A DNA stretch of 46,322 bases from a virus (IMGVR_UViG_3300035130_000135:1-46322); one strand, 5' to 3'. Positions 2,394-44,614 are shown, counted from the stretch's first letter. A program made the numbers and translations. The notes: generated by a model not told the origin, from the letters alone.

Positions 2394-2764
2394 AGAAGGT
2401 AGGTCGGAAAAAGGGACAGAGCGGAGCGCGAGTAAGGTATAATGGGAGGCGGGCGCGATACGGCCCGATCAGTGGAAGCATTGAGCAGTATAAAGCCCAG
2501 TGGGACTATCTCGACTCCCTGGCTCATATCTCAGGAGCCGGGAGTAAGGCGCTTTTACGAGGGTTGCAACTTCTTATGAATCTTGAGGATCTAGACCAAC
2601 AGATGGAGATCTTATCATTAACACATAAAACCCATGAAATGGTCAGTCAAGTCCTTGATCTCGTAAGGCATGGGATTGTTTTAAATAGTGAGATAGGAGA
2701 GCATGATCTCAACGAGCAGGGACACGATAAGCTCCAGTCCCTAGTATCAAAAGTGTCGGAGTAA
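2390..2764 (+). CDS. Hypothetical basic protein, 124 aa
   Basis: Starts in a 4-base ATGA overlap with the preceding gene. The first 25 residues are very basic and Gly/Arg-rich (GRKKGQSGARVRYNGRRARY), typical of a nucleic-acid-binding tail. The rest is predicted helical, with a Leu-rich stretch near 55-75. The coupling suggests it works with the EAD-like protein, but no family is recognised. Confidence 0.6.
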   Translation: MKKVGRKKGQSGARVRYNGRRARYGPISGSIEQYKAQWDYLDSLAHISGAGSKALLRGLQLLMNLEDLDQQMEILSLTHKTHEMVSQVLDLVRHGIVLNSEIGEHDLNEQGHDKLQSLVSKVSE

Positions 2765-2767
2765 ATT

Positions 2768-3013
2768 ATGAATGAAATAGAGAAAGAACTTTTTCAAAAA
2801 TTTCAAGAGATTGCAAAAACTGATCCGGTTGCTCAATCGGCGCTTTCTCAATTCATGGCGGGGTACGGCACATTACAAGAAATGTTCTTGCAGGTTTTGC
2901 TGATTTTCTACGAACAGAAACAACGATCTATAGCCATGATAGAAGGATATATAGAAAAGTATGCAACTCCTGAACCAATCAAAAAAGACCATGAAACAGC
3001 TAACTGCATATGA
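2768..3013 (+). CDS. Hypothetical protein, 81 aa
   Basis: Small helical protein with an aromatic/hydrophobic central segment (FLQVLLIFY) that is too short and polar-flanked to be a clear membrane span. It is 3 bases beyond the previous stop and overlaps the next gene by 23 bases, so it belongs to the same operon. Function unknown. Confidence 0.6.
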   Translation: MNEIEKELFQKFQEIAKTDPVAQSALSQFMAGYGTLQEMFLQVLLIFYEQKQRSIAMIEGYIEKYATPEPIKKDHETANCI

Positions 3014-3200
3014 AGCTTTCATAAGGCTCAATAGCCTCTATGTACGCTTCCTCACAAAACCTCGGAAACGAGGGCGCATCATTCAGGAAATTGAGGAGAT
3101 GACACGGATCATCTGTGAGGATGATAAGGTCTTACCCGGCCTCAAACAGCGGGCTAAAAATATGCTGAAATACTATCAGAATATGATGGAGAATGTATGA
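2991..3200 (+). CDS. Hypothetical protein, 69 aa, basic helical
   Basis: Start chosen at 2991 (MKQLTAYEAF) rather than the in-frame ATG at 2961, which would deepen the overlap with the previous gene. It has a basic patch (TKPRKRGR) in the middle and helical flanks. Its TGA overlaps the ATG of the first microprotein of the membrane cluster (3197), linking the two groups. Confidence 0.6.
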   Translation: MKQLTAYEAFIRLNSLYVRFLTKPRKRGRIIQEIEEMTRIICEDDKVLPGLKQRAKNMLKYYQNMMENV

Positions 3201-3292
3201 GTTTGATGATCGGCTATATTATTAAGATTATATTTTTGATTGTGTGGGCCTGGCTCATGCTTGTTTTTATGCGGTCAACAGGAAGAATATAG
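3197..3292 (+). CDS. Membrane microprotein 1, 31 aa
   Basis: ATG overlaps the previous TGA (ATGA). The product is one hydrophobic helix of about 20 residues (IIKIIFLIVWAWLMLVF) flanked by a short N terminus and a basic C-terminal tail (MRSTGRI), so the N terminus probably faces outwards. It is the first of a run of single-span proteins upstream of the FtsK/HerA-like ATPase. Confidence 0.55.
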   Translation: MSLMIGYIIKIIFLIVWAWLMLVFMRSTGRI

Positions 3293-3301
3293 GAGAAGTG
3301 A

Positions 3302-3529
3302 ATGATGACAGATTTTGAACGATTACGATCTACGTTTGCTACGCTGGGAATTCCTATTATTATCGACGATTACAAATTTCGGCATTACGATACAATTGAA
3401 CTCGATATTATGGGATACCCTAATATATTTAGGATAAGTGAGAAGGGATTAACCTATACGGTTGAGGTGAGGTTTCATTTTCATCGGGCAACGAAAGCAT
3501 TTAGCCATGTGGGTCTGGTGGGGGACTAA
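3302..3529 (+). CDS. Hypothetical protein, 75 aa
   Basis: AGGAGAAG precedes a double ATG (3302 and 3305); either could start translation. The predicted product is soluble and beta-rich with alternating hydrophobic residues (IELDIMGYPNIFRI). No family recognised. It lies inside the membrane microprotein cluster. Confidence 0.65.
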   Translation: MMTDFERLRSTFATLGIPIIIDDYKFRHYDTIELDIMGYPNIFRISEKGLTYTVEVRFHFHRATKAFSHVGLVGD

Positions 3530-3532
3530 GCA

Positions 3533-3715
3533 ATGCAACTGGAAAAAATAGAGGCAATAAAAGGGGCTCTTGTAAAGGCATTTCAAGACGCTTACTTTTT
3601 TTCAGTGGGATCTCAATACGGGATGTTCGGCATGTCGAAACCAATAAGTTTCCATGAAGCCTATAGACTAACGCTAAAGGTAGAAATGGAAAAGCTTAAA
3701 GAAAATGTTACTTGA
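3533..3715 (+). CDS. Hypothetical protein, 60 aa
   Basis: Small soluble protein, aromatic-rich in the middle, with helical ends. It starts 3 bases after the previous stop and overlaps the next microprotein by 11 bases. No family recognised; operon position is the main evidence. Confidence 0.55.
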   Translation: MQLEKIEAIKGALVKAFQDAYFFSVGSQYGMFGMSKPISFHEAYRLTLKVEMEKLKENVT

Positions 3716-3800
3716 GTGGATAAAATATATTGTCGTGATTATCGTGATTATTGGAGCGTGTTTGCTCTGCTTTAAAGCTGGTCAATACTGGCCGAGATAA
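3705..3800 (+). CDS. Membrane microprotein 2, 31 aa
   Basis: One membrane span (IVVIIVIIGACLLCF) with a short acidic/basic N terminus and a C-terminal KAGQYWPR. It overlaps the preceding gene and has the same length and design as microprotein 1, though the sequences are not obviously related. Membrane placement is clear from composition; role inferred only from the cluster. Confidence 0.55.
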   Translation: MLLEWIKYIVVIIVIIGACLLCFKAGQYWPR

Positions 3801-3815
3801 AGAAGGTAATGTGCT

Positions 3816-3962
3816 ATGGGATTCGTATTTGACTGGTCAGTTGACTGGTCTTATGTTTGGTTTTTCTTTATGTGCATTCTGAAATTTTTGGTATGTCTTG
3901 GTGTTGCAGCAGTTCTTTTAAGCGTTGTGATTGCTGCAATCGCCAGGGAGGGAGGACTTTAA
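3816..3962 (+). CDS. Membrane microprotein 3, 48 aa
   Basis: The N terminus has two tandem DWS motifs (FDWSVDWSY), followed by a long hydrophobic stretch of about 30 residues and a short AREGGL tail. GAAGGT precedes the ATG. It is the size of a filamentous-phage major coat protein and of small holin-type proteins; I cannot decide which, if either. Confidence 0.55.
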   Translation: MGFVFDWSVDWSYVWFFFMCILKFLVCLGVAAVLLSVVIAAIAREGGL

Positions 3963-3964
3963 GC

Positions 3965-4138
3965 GTGAAAACTCTAATACTCTCTCTATTCGTAATATTC
4001 ATAGTCACGGGATGCGGTTCTCATCTCCAGGTCGAGACAGACCTATCTGATGAGGGGACGCGATGTATTTCCATAGATGCCGTGACAACGGATGTCACGG
4101 CGACCTCAGAAGATTTTGGTCTGGTTGTCAATTGGTGA
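3965..4138 (+). CDS. Small lipoprotein, 57 aa
   Basis: GTG start (3965) preceded by GGAGGGAGGA. The N terminus is a typical lipoprotein signal: MK, a hydrophobic helix, then the lipobox VTGC at residues 14-17, so the mature protein of about 41 residues would be lipid-anchored at Cys17. A longer frame from 3857 is rejected because it lacks a ribosome site and overlaps microprotein 3. Small lipoproteins in such positions act as outer-membrane spanins (Rz1-like) or secretion/exclusion lipoproteins; context here favours an envelope complex with the ATPase. Confidence 0.75.
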   Translation: MKTLILSLFVIFIVTGCGSHLQVETDLSDEGTRCISIDAVTTDVTATSEDFGLVVNW

Positions 4139-4142
4139 AGGC

Positions 4143-4253
4143 ATGAATGAAAGCATAATGAGTTTTTTTATGGATGTCGCAACATGGGTAAGCGTCATAG
4201 TCTTTGTGTGTCTGCTTGCCCTCTGTTTGTATGGAGCGAAGGTACTAAGATGA
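4143..4253 (+). CDS. Membrane microprotein 4, 36 aa
   Basis: Single membrane span (VSVIVFVCLLALCLYGA) with a basic C-terminal tail (KVLR) and an N terminus containing FFMD. It starts 4 bases after the lipoprotein stop, and its TGA overlaps the next ATG. Same design as the neighbouring microproteins. Confidence 0.55.
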   Translation: MNESIMSFFMDVATWVSVIVFVCLLALCLYGAKVLR

Positions 4254-4357
4254 CACCGTATGGATTAGGCTATTATTTTTCAATGGGAGTAGCAATAGGA
4301 GTTGGTATTGTGTTTGTTCTTCTTATTATTGGATACTTGTTTTTGAGAGGCAAATGA
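4250..4357 (+). CDS. Membrane microprotein 5, 35 aa
   Basis: Starts in the ATGA of the preceding stop and ends in the ATGA of the ATPase start (4354-4357), so three genes are chained by 4-base overlaps. The product is one span (GVGIVFVLLIIGYLFL) with RGK at the C terminus. The direct coupling to the ATPase is the best evidence that these microproteins belong to its complex. Confidence 0.6.
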   Translation: MTPYGLGYYFSMGVAIGVGIVFVLLIIGYLFLRGK

Positions 4358-5859
4358 AAGAGGCATCACTTCGTTATGCTGTAGTTATGTGTTTTTTGCT
4401 TGTGTGCTTGGCGCTAATTGGAATTCAACTTTTTGATGCTATTCAGACAGGCCATAAGCTTAAAGAGGCTAAAGAAACCCAACAAATCAAAGATATTTTT
4501 TTTTGGGGTCGCTTTTGGCAGGTTGCCGCCATTGTCGGAGGCTCATTGGTTGTCTTCGCCTGTGCTGTGCTTGTTGTTGTCTGGTCATGGGGGTATCTAG
4601 TTCAAAAATTGACTCATCATGCCAGAGTAGGGAATTCAGATATTCCCATCCATCACAAGGATCTTCGTAGCATGTCTCCTATGATAGGAGGGTTGGTATC
4701 CGTTAAAGGAATTGCAGCGCAGAGTAAGACCGAAGCCTTTCACATCTATGCTCAGGCTGCTAAAGATTTTCTGGCCCTCGCAAAAAAAAACACTTCTGGC
4801 CAGATTCAACCCTCTATCCAGCAAGCGTTACCCGCTGCTGTACCAGTCCGTACCCCTACCTTCTCAGAGCTGATTGAGGATGGGAAGATCGGCCCTGGGA
4901 AGCCCCTAATCTTCGGATATACGCAAGAAGGCTATCCACATAAAGGAACCTGGGAGGATCTCTTCTCGGCGGCGATGGCGGGTCAATCCGGGAGTGGAAA
5001 AACCTACTCAGAACGCTACATTATCGCCTCCTCTTTGCTCTCTGGGGAGGTTGAGCGCTTCATCATCCTGGATTATGCCTATCCTCACCCAAAAAGTCTG
5101 TTGTCGAAACTGGGCAAGCTCAAAGACTCCCCTCGAATTATCGCCTTTGATCCGGAAAGAATGTTTGATAAAGGCAATATTACCGCATTTTTACGGCGAC
5201 ATGTCGAGCGCGAGCTTGACCACAGGATCCATCACACAAATAATCACAAGCCAGTAGTGCTCGTGACGGATGAAACGCTCCAACTATGCAAGCTCTGCCC
5301 CTATCTCACAGACCTCATTTTTCGGGTAGGGACCGAAGGCCGGAAAACTAATTTTTATGGGCTATTTTCTGCTCACAATTGGAAAGGGGGGCTTGTCGGA
5401 GGAACTGAGGTCAGGGATAGTCTCACCTCATACCTAGTGCATAATATGCGGAGGGGGGCCGCGAGAACCTTCTTACAAGATGCGGATCTAGCAAAGAGGG
5501 TCGTTAACCTGCCTCCAGGTCAAGCCCTGTTCTCCCCGACACGAGGGGGTGCAGAGATTCTCACGATTCCTAAAACCTCAGATCTCGACATGGAATATGT
5601 CTTCTCATACTTAGGGAGTGAGGAAAGGCCGGGGACTCAGACACAAGCAGTGCTATCACCTGAGCACATCTTGCAACTCCTACAAGAGTCATGTGAGGCT
5701 AGGGGATCTAGCATGAGCAAAAATCAATGGCAAGCACAAACCGCAAAAGCCCTAAAGGTGTCACCATCACTTATCAAAAATATTATGCTAGGTCATGCGG
5801 ATTTGACAGAAGAAATGTGTGTCAAAATAGCTGGTTATTTTCAAGTTGAAAACCTCTAA
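4354..5859 (+). CDS. Membrane-anchored FtsK/HerA-type DNA-pump ATPase
   Basis: A 501-aa P-loop ATPase. Two membrane spans (about residues 8-27 and 57-83) anchor it. A linker leads to the ATPase core: Walker A GQSGSGKT at 210-217 and a Walker B-like VVLVTDE at 301-307, with an arginine-rich segment after it (MRRGAARTFL). The last 50 residues form a helix-turn-helix-like domain. This layout (membrane anchor, RecA-like motor, C-terminal DNA-recognition domain) is that of FtsK/SpoIIIE, HerA and conjugative coupling proteins, which move DNA through or towards a membrane. It is not the phage terminase, which is present separately at 11298. No relaxase is recognised nearby. Likely partner of the preceding microproteins. 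Confidence 0.8.
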   Translation: MKEASLRYAVVMCFLLVCLALIGIQLFDAIQTGHKLKEAKETQQIKDIFFWGRFWQVAAIVGGSLVVFACAVLVVVWSWGYLVQKLTHHARVGNSDIPIHHKDLRSMSPMIGGLVSVKGIAAQSKTEAFHIYAQAAKDFLALAKKNTSGQIQPSIQQALPAAVPVRTPTFSELIEDGKIGPGKPLIFGYTQEGYPHKGTWEDLFSAAMAGQSGSGKTYSERYIIASSLLSGEVERFIILDYAYPHPKSLLSKLGKLKDSPRIIAFDPERMFDKGNITAFLRRHVERELDHRIHHTNNHKPVVLVTDETLQLCKLCPYLTDLIFRVGTEGRKTNFYGLFSAHNWKGGLVGGTEVRDSLTSYLVHNMRRGAARTFLQDADLAKRVVNLPPGQALFSPTRGGAEILTIPKTSDLDMEYVFSYLGSEERPGTQTQAVLSPEHILQLLQESCEARGSSMSKNQWQAQTAKALKVSPSLIKNIMLGHADLTEEMCVKIAGYFQVENL

Positions 5860-6221: not shown

Positions 6222-6331
6222 AAAGTGTCACTTTTATGCAAGCGCGTGCATAGCTTGAAACGCTTGCTATGAAGGCTGGCCCGGATACGCTACAAAAAGT
6301 GTCACTGGGCATGACAGAAAGTGTCACTTTT
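6222..6331 (+). promoter_or_regulatory. Three AAAGTGTCACT operator-like boxes
   Basis: AAAGTGTCACTTTT occurs at 6222-6235 and 6318-6331, and a shorter copy AAAGTGTCACT at 6296-6306. Each is a near-palindrome (AAAGTG/CACTTT around one base). They lie in the 317-base gene-free region 6219-6535, ahead of the cassette array, and look like binding sites for a phage repressor or activator. Confidence 0.6.
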
Positions 6332-6355: not shown

Positions 6356-6397
6356 TGTCAACGCTGTTGACACTTCTCCTCTCCTCAAAAATATTTT
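6356..6397 (+). promoter_or_regulatory. Promoter with overlapping inverted repeat
   Basis: TGTCAAC (6356-6362) and GTTGACA (6366-6372) form a 7-base inverted repeat around 3 bases. Its right arm contains TTGACA (6367-6372), a perfect -35 box; TATTTT at 6392-6397 is a possible -10 with a long 19-base spacer. A protein on the palindrome would cover the -35. The rest of the region to 6470 is A/T-rich with runs of A, and holds no gene. Confidence 0.5.
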
Positions 6398-6476: not shown

Positions 6477-6507
6477 TATGCATTATATATAGGGTGAGTG
6501 GCAATGA
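6477..6507 (+). repeat. 31-base direct repeat, left copy
   Basis: Identical to 6931-6961, which covers the last codons of the gene at 6536 and the start of its downstream spacer. The left copy therefore looks like the tail of a lost upstream gene copy, left after recombination between tandem duplicates. Confidence 0.7.
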
Positions 6508-6535: not shown

Positions 6536-6946
6536 ATGTATTTACATTGTGCTGATGATTCAACTATTGCAGCGATTAAAGCCCATGCTAAAGAGGTTGG
6601 AAAGGTTGAATTGGTTGGTCGAAATGATTTGGATTTGGCGAACCATTCAACAGATTGGAGCGATTATAATGAGTTAGATTGGGAATGGCAAGGCTGGGGA
6701 GAGGGAGCTGTGTATTGTCTGAAAGAAAGCACCGGAGCAGCTACAGCGTATGGCCGTACCTGCTTTGTATTAATCCCTGAATTGAGCGAATATGATACAT
6801 CTGTAGAGATTGAAAATAAATCTGGATTAGGAGGAGAAATTCTTGTTCCATTAGAGGATTTTGAGATCGCTGAAATTATCATTGATGGAGAGCATCACTT
6901 TTCTCCTGAAGAATGGGTAGAAAATAGTGATATGCATTATATATAG
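6536..6946 (+). CDS. Hypothetical acidic protein, 136 aa
   Basis: Start at 6536 chosen for AAGGAG at 6521-6526; a longer in-frame form from 6449 has no ribosome site. The protein is very acidic and rich in Trp (DWSDYNELDWEWQGWGEG), features seen in DNA-mimic inhibitors, although no known family is recognised. First gene of the cassette array, flanked by 31-base direct repeats. Confidence 0.65.
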   Translation: MYLHCADDSTIAAIKAHAKEVGKVELVGRNDLDLANHSTDWSDYNELDWEWQGWGEGAVYCLKESTGAATAYGRTCFVLIPELSEYDTSVEIENKSGLGGEILVPLEDFEIAEIIIDGEHHFSPEEWVENSDMHYI

Positions 6947-6961
6947 GGTGAGTGGCAATGA
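6931..6961 (+). repeat. 31-base direct repeat, right copy
   Basis: Exact second copy of 6477-6507. It overlaps the end of the gene at 6536, encoding its last residues (MHYI and stop), and runs into the spacer before the gene at 6989. Confidence 0.7.
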
Positions 6962-7342: not shown

Positions 7343-7343
7343 A

Positions 7344-7400
7344 GCCGAAACCGGGGTAACACCCGGTCGTCCCTGGGTGGTTCCTGGGGCCTGATGAGGC
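7344..7400 (+). ncRNA. Type II hammerhead ribozyme
   Basis: All core elements of a hammerhead are present in the type II order. Stem II 3' strand GCC (7344-7346); conserved GAAA (7347-7350); stem III CCGGG/CCCGG (7351-7355 with 7362-7366, loop of 6); UC (7367-7368), with cleavage expected after C7368; stem I GUCCC/GGGGC (7369-7373 with 7386-7390, one G-U pair) closing an inner small hairpin; conserved CUGAUGA (7391-7397); stem II 5' strand GGC (7398-7400) pairing with 7344-7346. The A-U pair of the core (A7350-U7367) is intact. It lies wholly between two genes and would separate their transcripts. Stem II is only 3 pairs, which is its weakest feature. Confidence 0.75.
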
Positions 7401-7432
7401 AGCCACCTCAAAAAACAACGGAGGAACATAGT

Positions 7433-8970: not shown

Positions 8971-9019
8971 CTGCCTGAGTGCCCATGAACTCAGGATAAC
9001 ATATGGAGGTAAGAGCATG
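8971..9019 (+). repeat. Cassette leader repeat, copy 1
   Basis: A 49-base leader ending in the start ATG, matching 9654-9702 at 43 of 49 positions. It contains a 7-pair hairpin CCTGAGT/ACTCAGG with an 8-base loop, then GGAGGTAAGAG as ribosome site. Same leader before two unrelated genes suggests gene replacement behind a fixed control element. Confidence 0.7.
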
Positions 9020-9646
9020 AAAATTAAGATTACATACGAAGATCTTCGCAAGCATGGGGCGTGCCGTGAAGGTTTAGATCTGTTTCAGAGTCTCTACCCG
9101 GAGGGGCTTGACATGGAGTGGAGTCGGGAAGCCCAGATTGAGCTATTGAAGACTAGCCCTCTCAAGCGATATTTCGCATGGGCCTATCGTTTCGGGGTGA
9201 TTCCCATCTTTTCAATGTCCGGGGCCGACCTGTCCGGGGCCAGCCTGCGAGAGGCCGACCTGCGAGAGGCCGACCTGCGAGAGGCCGACCTGCGAGGGGC
9301 CAACCTGCGAGAGGCCAACCTGTATGGGGCCGATCTGTCCGGGGCCGACCTGTCCGGGGCCAGCCTGCGAGAGGCCAGCCTGCGAGAGGCCGACCTGCGA
9401 GAGGCCAACCTGCGAGAGGCCAACCTGTATGGGGCCGACCTGTATGGGGCCGACCTGTCCGGGGCCGACCTGTCCGGGGCCAGCCTGCGAGAGGCCAACC
9501 TGTCCGGGGCCGACCTGTCCGGGGCCAGCCTGCGAGAGGCCGACCTGCGAGAGGCCGACCTGCGAGAGGCCGACCTGCGAGGGGCCAACCTGCGAGAGGC
9601 CAACCTGTCCGGGGCCGACCTGTATGGGGCAATTGGAATTAAGTAA
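9017..9646 (+). CDS. Pentapeptide repeat protein, 209 aa
   Basis: Residues 1-70 are a non-repetitive head containing KHGAC and YPEG, a motif I associate with the N terminus of several phage and bacterial pentapeptide-type proteins. Residues 71-207 are about 27 uninterrupted A(D/N/S)L-x-x pentapeptides (ADLSG, ADLRE, ANLYG), predicting a right-handed quadrilateral beta-helix. Long acidic pentapeptide helices can mimic DNA, as in the gyrase-binding Qnr and MfpA proteins. The coding DNA is a tandem array of 15-base units, more GC-rich than the surroundings, with higher-order duplication (9250-9324 resembles 9535-9609). Repeat number is probably unstable. Confidence 0.85.
   Translation: MKIKITYEDLRKHGACREGLDLFQSLYPEGLDMEWSREAQIELLKTSPLKRYFAWAYRFGVIPIFSMSGADLSGASLREADLREADLREADLRGANLREANLYGADLSGADLSGASLREASLREADLREANLREANLYGADLYGADLSGADLSGASLREANLSGADLSGASLREADLREADLREADLRGANLREANLSGADLYGAIGIK
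9228..9632 (+). repeat. 15-base tandem repeat array inside the pentapeptide gene
   Basis: About 27 units of 15 bases, mainly two types (GGGGCCGACCTGTCC and GAGGCCGACCTGCGA). Because the unit is a multiple of three and lacks stops, four other frames stay open over the array, which explains several long false reading frames here. Confidence 0.9.
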
Positions 9647-40449: not shown

Positions 40450-41082
40450 ATGATCCAGAATCGTAAGCAACAAACATTATTCCCACAAGTTATCCGATCT
40501 ATTGGATATGATCAAATTGGGATTCTTGAGGATATTATGGCGCTCTATTGTCCCCAGGGGTTTGAGTGTGATCCAACGTATTCTAAGGGATATTTTTACC
40601 GCTCGACCGTGCCTAAACCCTTATATGCGTTTGATTTGGTCCCTCAGCAACGAGGGGTCGTTTGTGCTGATGCTAAACACCTGCCCTTGCCGGCAAGTTG
40701 TGTGTCGAGCCTAATTCTTGATCCGCCGTTTTTGCCAAATAAATCAGGAACAAAAGGGATTATGCGGACACGTTTTTCTGGTTTAGGTGACATATCTTGT
40801 TTTAATGGAAATATGGCAGCCCTTTATAGTGAATATAGCCAAATGCTTTATGAGGCGTACCGTGTATTGCGAGATGCCGGCATTTTAGTCTTTAAATGTC
40901 AGGATTATACATCATTTGATTTTTATCCAACACATATCAAGGTATACGATTTTGCAATAGAGGCCGGTTTTCAGGCAGTTGATTTGTTTATTCTTTTATC
41001 CAAAAACAGACCAATACGAACGGATTTGCATCAGCGCCATGCTCGAAAATTCCACTCGTATCTCTGGGTCTTTCAAAAATAA
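40450..41082 (+). CDS. DNA methyltransferase-like protein (DPPF motif)
   Basis: 210 aa. LILDPPF at residues 88-94 is the catalytic motif of amino-methyltransferases (N6-adenine or N4-cytosine), and a later YRVLRDAGILVFKCQDY matches the following strand. DPT at residues 41-43 is near the expected cofactor-side region, but the usual FxGxG motif I is not clear. It could protect phage DNA from restriction. No restriction partner is seen. Confidence 0.7.
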   Translation: MIQNRKQQTLFPQVIRSIGYDQIGILEDIMALYCPQGFECDPTYSKGYFYRSTVPKPLYAFDLVPQQRGVVCADAKHLPLPASCVSSLILDPPFLPNKSGTKGIMRTRFSGLGDISCFNGNMAALYSEYSQMLYEAYRVLRDAGILVFKCQDYTSFDFYPTHIKVYDFAIEAGFQAVDLFILLSKNRPIRTDLHQRHARKFHSYLWVFQK

Positions 41083-41113: not shown

Positions 41114-41299
41114 ATGAACCGCAACGACAACAACTGTCATTATATTGAGCAGAAGAAGCAATGTGACCGGTGTGGGGCCTGGATACGTGGGAAGGATCTA
41201 CAGGACTTGCATGAGGCGATTATCACCCATGTCCAAAGTGGTGAGTGTGATCGGCGCGTGCAAGCCCTTAATCAATGCAAACAAGGGAAAAACTTATGA
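41114..41299 (+). CDS. Small zinc-knuckle-like protein, 61 aa
   Basis: CDRCG (about residues 17-21) with a later H...C pair (HVQSGECDRR) suggests one zinc knuckle. Its TGA overlaps the next ATG (ATGA, 41296-41299). Directly coupled to the methyltransferase-like gene that follows. Confidence 0.6.
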   Translation: MNRNDNNCHYIEQKKQCDRCGAWIRGKDLQDLHEAIITHVQSGECDRRVQALNQCKQGKNL

Positions 41300-41769
41300 T
41301 TTTGGACGTATGTTGCGGACCTAAGCACATGTGGTTTGACAAAAACCACCCTAACGCTATCTATGGCGATATTCGTCAAGAAACACACACATATCATAGT
41401 GATAAATGGGGGGATCAAACTTGGACGATTGATCCAGATATTCTTTATAATTTTATGGCTCTGCCCTTTCAAAATAACGTATTTAGCTTGATTGTGTTTG
41501 ATCCGCCTCACCTCCAACGACTTGGAGAAACGTCGTTCATGGCGAAAAAATACGGACGCTTAACGCTTGGGTGGGAAGAGCAGATCCATGCAGGGTTTAA
41601 GGAGTGTTTCCGAGTATTGAAGCCAGCAGGAACCTTGATTTTTAAATGGAATGAGACGGATTTTAGTGTCAAGAAAATTATAGAAGTATTAGGACACCAA
41701 CCGTTATTTGGGAATCATTCAGGGAAATTTTTAAAATCCCACTGGTTAGCATTTATCAAGGAGGATTGA
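41296..41769 (+). CDS. SAM-dependent methyltransferase-like protein (DPPH motif)
   Basis: 157 aa. LDVCCGPK at residues 3-10 fits SAM-binding motif I, and IVFDPPH at 66-72 is a catalytic-type motif IV. The C-terminal ECFRVLKPAGTLIFKW matches the usual later strands. Coupled to the zinc-knuckle gene by ATGA. Second methyltransferase-like gene in the region; it may modify DNA for protection. Confidence 0.75.
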   Translation: MILDVCCGPKHMWFDKNHPNAIYGDIRQETHTYHSDKWGDQTWTIDPDILYNFMALPFQNNVFSLIVFDPPHLQRLGETSFMAKKYGRLTLGWEEQIHAGFKECFRVLKPAGTLIFKWNETDFSVKKIIEVLGHQPLFGNHSGKFLKSHWLAFIKED

Positions 41770-44345: not shown

Positions 44346-44522
44346 ATGGAAAACGAGACAATTGCATCGTTAACCCAAGAAATTATTGAATTGCAGGACG
44401 AGCTTGCCTGGGGTGAACGGCAGCATCTCCCGGAGAAGTGCCTACAGCGAATACGAGACAAGCTGCTCTCCCAGCAGGCCCGTCTTGCAGAATATCAAGC
44501 TCAGTTGGAGATAGAATCATGA
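44346..44522 (+). CDS. Hypothetical coiled-coil protein, 58 aa
   Basis: Glu/Gln-rich helical protein between the exonuclease and a membrane microprotein; its TGA overlaps the next ATG (ATGA). Possibly translated by coupling. Confidence 0.5.
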   Translation: MENETIASLTQEIIELQDELAWGERQHLPEKCLQRIRDKLLSQQARLAEYQAQLEIES

Positions 44523-44614
44523 ACGAAACAATCAAAGACGTATTTTGGGCAGCCATCACCACAATAGTTATGATAGCCTTGCTCTGGCTCTTGTGGGGAT
44601 GTACGCCGTATTAA
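44519..44614 (+). CDS. Membrane microprotein, 31 aa
   Basis: ATGA-coupled to the gene before. One hydrophobic helix (AAITTIVMIALLWLLW) ending GCTPY, so it is a single-span protein or a minimal lipoprotein (LLWGC before Cys28). Same size class as the 3.2-4.4 kb microproteins. Confidence 0.5.
   Translation: MNETIKDVFWAAITTIVMIALLWLLWGCTPY

Follow-up and report, generated by a model that had tools for sequence, protein, structure and literature searches.

The stretch analyzed here (the window) is the whole of a 46,322-nt IMG/VR virus record, IMGVR_UViG_3300035130_000135:1-46322, which derives from an environmental sample and is possibly incomplete. Scans with Pfam and PHROGs recognized a terminase large subunit, a Mu-type portal and a tape measure, and the window was therefore assigned to a tailed phage, in agreement with the terminase-head-tail setting given in an original prediction made from the sequence alone. 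At positions 3197-5859, an operon of small membrane proteins and a lipoprotein leads into the gene of a 501-amino-acid (aa) membrane-anchored ATPase (Table 1). All of the predicted components (five single-span frames of 31-48 aa, the 57-aa lipoprotein and the ATPase) were found at the coordinates given for them. The frame series and its overlaps also stood, with two corrections: two soluble frames intervene, and the frame at 3705-3800 was without a clear ribosome-binding site. Throughout the operon, genes are separated by 2-15 bases or overlap slightly, and the final three (4143-4253, 4250-4357 and 4354-5859) are linked by 4-base ATGA overlaps.

Table 1. Features of the operon, its ATPase and the adjoining repeats. 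SD, Shine-Dalgarno sequence; ORF, open reading frame; HTH, helix-turn-helix.
Feature	Position	Strand	Evidence and remarks
31-aa single-span membrane microprotein	3197-3292	+	SD GGAG; ATGA overlap with preceding frame; span at residues 7-25
75-aa soluble operon protein	3302-3529	+	ORF with SD; no family match
60-aa soluble operon protein	3533-3715	+	ORF with SD; no significant family match
31-aa single-span membrane microprotein	3705-3800	+	Span at residues 5-23; no clear SD; 11-base overlap with previous gene
48-aa single-span membrane microprotein	3816-3962	+	SD AAGG; span at residues 24-42
57-aa lipoprotein, GTG start	3965-4138	+	Strong SD GGAGG; signal segment, then VTG/C lipobox (cleavage before C); no PHROGs match
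36-aa single-span membrane microprotein	4143-4253	+	SD; span at residues 12-30; positively charged C-end
35-aa single-span membrane microprotein	4250-4357	+	ATGA overlap at each end; span at residues 14-32
501-aa membrane-anchored FtsK-type ATPase	4354-5859	+	202 bits to relatives' profile built without the window protein; catalytic residues conserved
ATPase membrane span 1, residues 9-27	4378-4434	+	Hydropathy
ATPase membrane span 2, residues 57-75	4522-4578	+	Hydropathy
Walker A GQSGSGKT	4981-5004	+	Sequence; G210, G215 and K216 invariant in family
Walker B VVLVTDE	5254-5274	+	E307 invariant, D306 nearly invariant in family
EGRK...SAHNWK motif, candidate arginine finger R330 and sensor	5335-5385	+	R330 invariant; motif used for relative search
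C-terminal XRE-type HTH, residues 460-498	5731-5847	+	HTH_3 E = 7.7e-4; HigA-type E = 5e-4
Three AAAGTGTCAC copies, two inside full AAAGTGnCACTTT palindromes	6222-6330	+	In a 317-base non-coding gap

A simple hydropathy scan gave one span for each small membrane protein. Small ORFs combining an SD match with a membrane span were counted in 2761-4360 and in 300 dinucleotide-preserving shuffles of the same region; five were observed, the shuffle mean was 0.12 and the maximum 2, and none of the 300 shuffles reached five. The sixth small membrane frame (3705-3800) has the span, and a clear ribosome-binding site is absent. Synonymous-codon statistics did not separate the frames in this weakly biased window genome, and so they neither support nor refute coding of the small frames. 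Four of the microproteins have C-ends more positive than their N-ends, which suggests, by the positive-inside rule, an outside-to-inside topology.

The two membrane spans and the Walker A motif predicted for the ATPase were borne out by hydropathy and sequence. Across 11 aligned family sequences, each of the catalytic residues named in Table 1 was invariant, apart from D306, which was nearly so. The C-terminal HTH of the prediction is real but weak, as its Pfam match lies under the curated cut-off (the HigA-type match is from NCBIfam). Taken alone, the window ATPase had no significant match to any family or structure in Pfam, PHROGs, NCBIfam or PDB, except for this weak HTH and a weak match to mad8, and direct protein searches returned none in phages, plasmids, viral and bacterial contigs or solved structures.

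The search for relatives used a degenerate DNA pattern derived from the EGRK...W motif. One true relative was found, a 47-kb viral contig (G003) carrying two copies; the other two matches were chance, as were all matches on bacterial contigs. A profile built from the G003 pair returned 11 relatives and one true FtsK in 400 genomes from the phylum of a Chloroflexi metagenome-assembled genome (MAG), and one more in the phylum to which a Candidatus Methylomirabilis MAG belongs. Matches in Bacillota were mostly full-length FtsK, and the profile search of Acidobacteriota gave no relatives. A relative was also present on each of two more viral contigs, G1196 and G1197; like G003, both carry a terminase. 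Eight divergent relatives were aligned as well, and this alignment proved too variable for use in scans.

Against a profile made from its relatives alone, the window ATPase scored 202 bits over residues 7-437; a true Chloroflexota FtsK reached 22.8 bits and Tra of the Streptomyces plasmid pIJ101 18 bits. The match of the window ATPase covers anchor and motor and stops short of the HTH, suggesting that family members exchange their C-terminal domain. When a family profile (A3) was compared with the PDB, the best agreement was with the FtsK motor 2iuu (E = 3e-13), followed by HerA chains (1.9e-6 and 7e-6) and the coupling protein TcpA (7e-5). One relative itself matched FtsK_SpoIIIE in Pfam, the FtsK/SpoIIIE-like class in PHROGs and TcpA in the PDB. 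Judged by these profile matches, the window ATPase family is FtsK-type inside the FtsK/HerA superfamily; for the window protein, the FtsK link runs through the relatives' profile. The predicted layout of FtsK, HerA and conjugative coupling proteins was thus upheld for the superfamily, on the FtsK side, and not for VirD4/TraD, which went unmatched: the window protein had no Pfam match to coupling-protein families of type IV secretion systems (T4SS), and A3 hit TrwB at the P-loop only.

On a tree of the family, phage and element members were intermixed (the pairings of G1196 with G303 and of G003a with G188 are strongly supported), and the module has therefore probably moved between phages and elements; the window protein was placed nowhere firmly. 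The Chloroflexota relatives adjoin tyrosine or serine recombinases, D5_N/DUF5906 primase-helicases, and TraG-like, Replic_Relax or actin-type partition genes (the serine recombinases and the actin gene of G252 were identified by eye). As the terminase family PF03237 was not found on these ATPase-bearing contigs (one terminase family, and some contigs short), their carriers look like integrative or plasmid-like elements. The viral contig G003 is phage-plasmid-like: near its two ATPases are ParA-like genes and actin-like ones (the latter by Pfam ALP_N, 2.8e-14). An integrase-like gene was identified by eye in G1196. G1196 also encodes (L055 15067-16965) a RecT-like protein with an apparent intein-like insertion (by eye). 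The ATPase module is thus common to some tailed phages and integrative or plasmid-like elements, Chloroflexota being the group in which it was sampled best.

In 7 of 16 relatives, vs. 3 of 66 control genes, a membrane protein no longer than 300 aa was encoded within 100 bases and on the same strand (p = 2.6e-4; 0.008 and 0.012 when the settings were loosened), a statistic that is support and not proof, because its thresholds were post hoc and the gene caller simple. The case that the original prediction had set against itself was of ATPase homologues never standing beside microproteins; this was not what was observed, as the relatives tend to adjoin membrane proteins.

Downstream of the ATPase gene, at a distance of 363-471 bases, are the AAAGTGTCAC repeats, of which two belong to full AAAGTGTCACTTT palindromes; the 9-mer AAGTGTCAC occurs in 3 copies where 0.15 were expected. 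They could be a recognition site or an ordinary operator, and a link to the C-terminal HTH is putative. Repeats near the ATPase genes of relatives had nothing in common. A palindrome, TGTCAACGCTGTTGACA (6356-6372), adjoins the AAAGTGTCAC repeats and overlaps a promoter-like TTGACA. Farther on, a perfect 31-base repeat, TATGCATTATATATAGGGTGAGTGGCAATGA, is present at 6477-6507 and 6931-6961, ahead of genes at 6536 and 6989, the second copy overlapping the 3' end of 6536-6946; it is a possible phage promoter or leader.

Streptomyces plasmid transfer offers the best functional model and a close likeness in layout. There, a single FtsK homologue, TraB, moves double-stranded DNA (dsDNA) that it recognizes by 8-bp repeats. 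Its spread across septa is aided by Spd proteins, which are small, bear no relation to one another and in some cases are membrane proteins (PMC4170104, PMC3218068). TraB/Tra with Spd and the window share an FtsK-like motor, a C-terminal DNA-binding domain (putative in the window) and adjoining, overlapping small membrane genes. In pIJ101, a 648-aa Tra with a C-terminal HTH is followed by overlapping spdA (94 aa) and spdB (291 aa), a 66-aa frame and kilB, and a span was predicted in each of these four. Spd proteins of different plasmids have no common sequence (PMC4170104), so the Spd likeness, of small integral membrane proteins beside an FtsK-like gene, is one of layout only. The TraB C-terminus recognizes its repeats (clt/TRS); in the window, the weak C-terminal HTH and the three repeats downstream are candidates for a comparable pair. 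The window differs from Streptomyces TraB in its two N-terminal spans, the XRE type of its HTH, the position of the microproteins 5' of the ATPase and the tailed-phage carrier. Actinomycete integrative and conjugative elements resemble the Chloroflexota relatives in combining an integrase, a replication protein and an FtsK-like protein.

With FtsK/SpoIIIE, the window ATPase has in common the motor domain (by profile, to 2iuu), a membrane anchor and a C-terminal DNA-binding domain (putative in the window protein), but it is 501 aa long vs. 700-900, has two spans and has no recognized gamma domain. TcpA of Clostridium perfringens plasmid pCW3, an FtsK-like coupling protein (PMC5365140), matches in the motor region; it works with a T4SS-like apparatus, whereas none was recognized in the window. 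TdtA, which acts in DNA donation during Thermus thermophilus transjugation, is an FtsK/HerA-family ATPase (PMC5365140) that, unlike the window protein, has no detected DNA-binding domain and adjoins a NurA gene. FtsK-type motors on tailed phages are also found in mycobacteriophages (Omega, Cluster J); these have no N-terminal membrane domain and are ~60% identical to host FtsK (PMC3706429), whereas the window ATPase is membrane-anchored and unlike FtsK. Two further models were discarded. The filamentous-phage (Zot/pI) export likeness raised by the original prediction was dropped, as no Zot-type family was matched in Pfam, PHROGs or NCBIfam, and a HerA-type sole packaging ATPase, as in membrane-containing viruses, was rejected on account of the separate terminase large subunit and portal.

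We favor, at about an even chance, the reading that 3197-5859 is an operon of a membrane-anchored FtsK-type dsDNA translocase and its small membrane partners, working in the manner of TraB and Spd without being a TraB. By analogy with that pair, the most likely task of the operon would be to move or position dsDNA of the phage itself at the membrane or septum, during maintenance of the phage in the cell. The two N-terminal spans would tether RecA-like motors, arranged in a ring, to the inner membrane, the motor would pump dsDNA, and a swappable C-terminal domain would select the DNA, perhaps via the palindromic repeats at 6222-6330. The microproteins and the lipoprotein may build or gate the membrane part. 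We infer that the motor is a hexamer, that it acts on DNA, that it interacts with the microproteins and that it serves either cell-to-cell spread or segregation. A plasmid-style transfer route is plausible; the other two options of the original prediction, superinfection exclusion and an alternative exit, drew no support of their own. The strongest form of the idea is a tailed-phage group with its own TraB-like dsDNA transfer machine, by which a prophage or phage-plasmid would spread virion-free through the septa of filamentous or multicellular hosts, besides forming particles; this we consider rather unlikely.

Several results weigh against the translocase reading. Similarity to pIJ101 Tra ends at the P-loop (18 bits), and the window ATPase is therefore not a TraB. 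No relaxase, T4SS, integrase or partition gene was recognized among the window proteins scanned. Microproteins of different relatives had no visible homology. The neighbor thresholds were set after looking (the first version gave p = 0.023, or 0.069 minus one doubtful ORF), gene calls and membrane spans came from simple scripts, and the AlphaFold2 model of the ATPase was too poor for use (pLDDT 45).

The main rival is segregation or resolution, suggested by the three relatives in which the ATPase has a tyrosine recombinase as its immediate neighbor. Here an FtsK-like pump would align DNA for a tyrosine recombinase or clear the septum, as FtsK-XerCD does, with no export to other cells. The recombinase gene adjoins or overlaps the ATPase gene in G296, G303 and G254, and actin-type partition genes lie near it in G003 and G252. 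Most relatives, however, have no recombinase adjacent to the ATPase, none was recognized among the window proteins scanned, and segregation alone leaves the membrane microprotein series unexplained; we regard it as possible, though on the unlikely side. Small phage membrane proteins often function in exclusion, and the ATPase and microproteins might instead act in superinfection exclusion or host takeover, on incoming DNA or host division and not on the phage's own DNA. The weak match to mad8, a MADS defence ATPase (E = 2.3e-5), and the PHROGs class of FtsK-like phage proteins (morons and host takeover) are consistent with this role. The mad8 match is limited to part of the motor (residues 275-395), and the relatives occur in replicating or integrating elements and not in defence islands, as far as seen; we regard exclusion or host takeover as distinctly unlikely.

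The remaining alternatives concern the small frames, which might be a holin, an antiholin and an outer spanin lying by chance 5' of an unrelated ATPase gene. The single-span proteins and the 57-aa lipoprotein are of the size of holins and spanin pieces, and in G1196 small membrane proteins adjoin a predicted endolysin-like gene (by eye). A lysis cassette is nevertheless improbable: five or six small membrane proteins exceed its needs, no lysis gene was recognized beside them, the lipoprotein is not proline-rich, the small frames overlap directly into the ATPase gene, and membrane proteins are kept beside the ATPase in relatives. Chance ORFs beside an ATPase that alone is real would fit with codon statistics that do not favor the reading frame and with the lack of close relatives for a conservation comparison; set against the five frames with SD and span where 0.12 were expected, the tight spacing and the ATGA overlaps, this explanation is the most improbable of those weighed.

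The phage itself is isolated. Its best-ranked terminase relatives among named phages are ~23-25% identical, and its portal had no relatives among named phages; the terminase, used as a bridge, led only to relatives 23-26% identical, none with the ATPase. Other plus-strand features of the window include a 147-aa protein (1950-2393) with effector-associated domain 8 (EAD8, E = 5.7e-13), a bacterial conflict-system domain found mainly in multicellular prokaryotes (PMC7159879); the phage protein could be a decoy or adaptor. A type II hammerhead ribozyme (7343-7408; 55 bits, cut-off 37) lies between two early-region phage genes. A 209-aa pentapeptide-repeat protein is encoded at 9017-9646 (E = 4.7e-55), and two small DNA-methyltransferase-like proteins at 40537-41082 and 41296-41769 (PHROGs, 3e-45 and 7e-65, respectively). 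A further 31-aa single-span microprotein with a ribosome-binding site and the C-terminus LLWGCTPY is found at 44519-44614.

FtsK-like genes of phages have been filed as morons of unknown role. The present case is an anchored FtsK-like phage ATPase with its own series of membrane microproteins. Its family is represented in at least four viral contigs that bear a terminase, and likewise in integrating elements carrying integrases and primases. If DNA is moved at the membrane, one defined operon would cross the boundary between phages and conjugative elements; if the segregation role is true, it would be a new prophage maintenance system.

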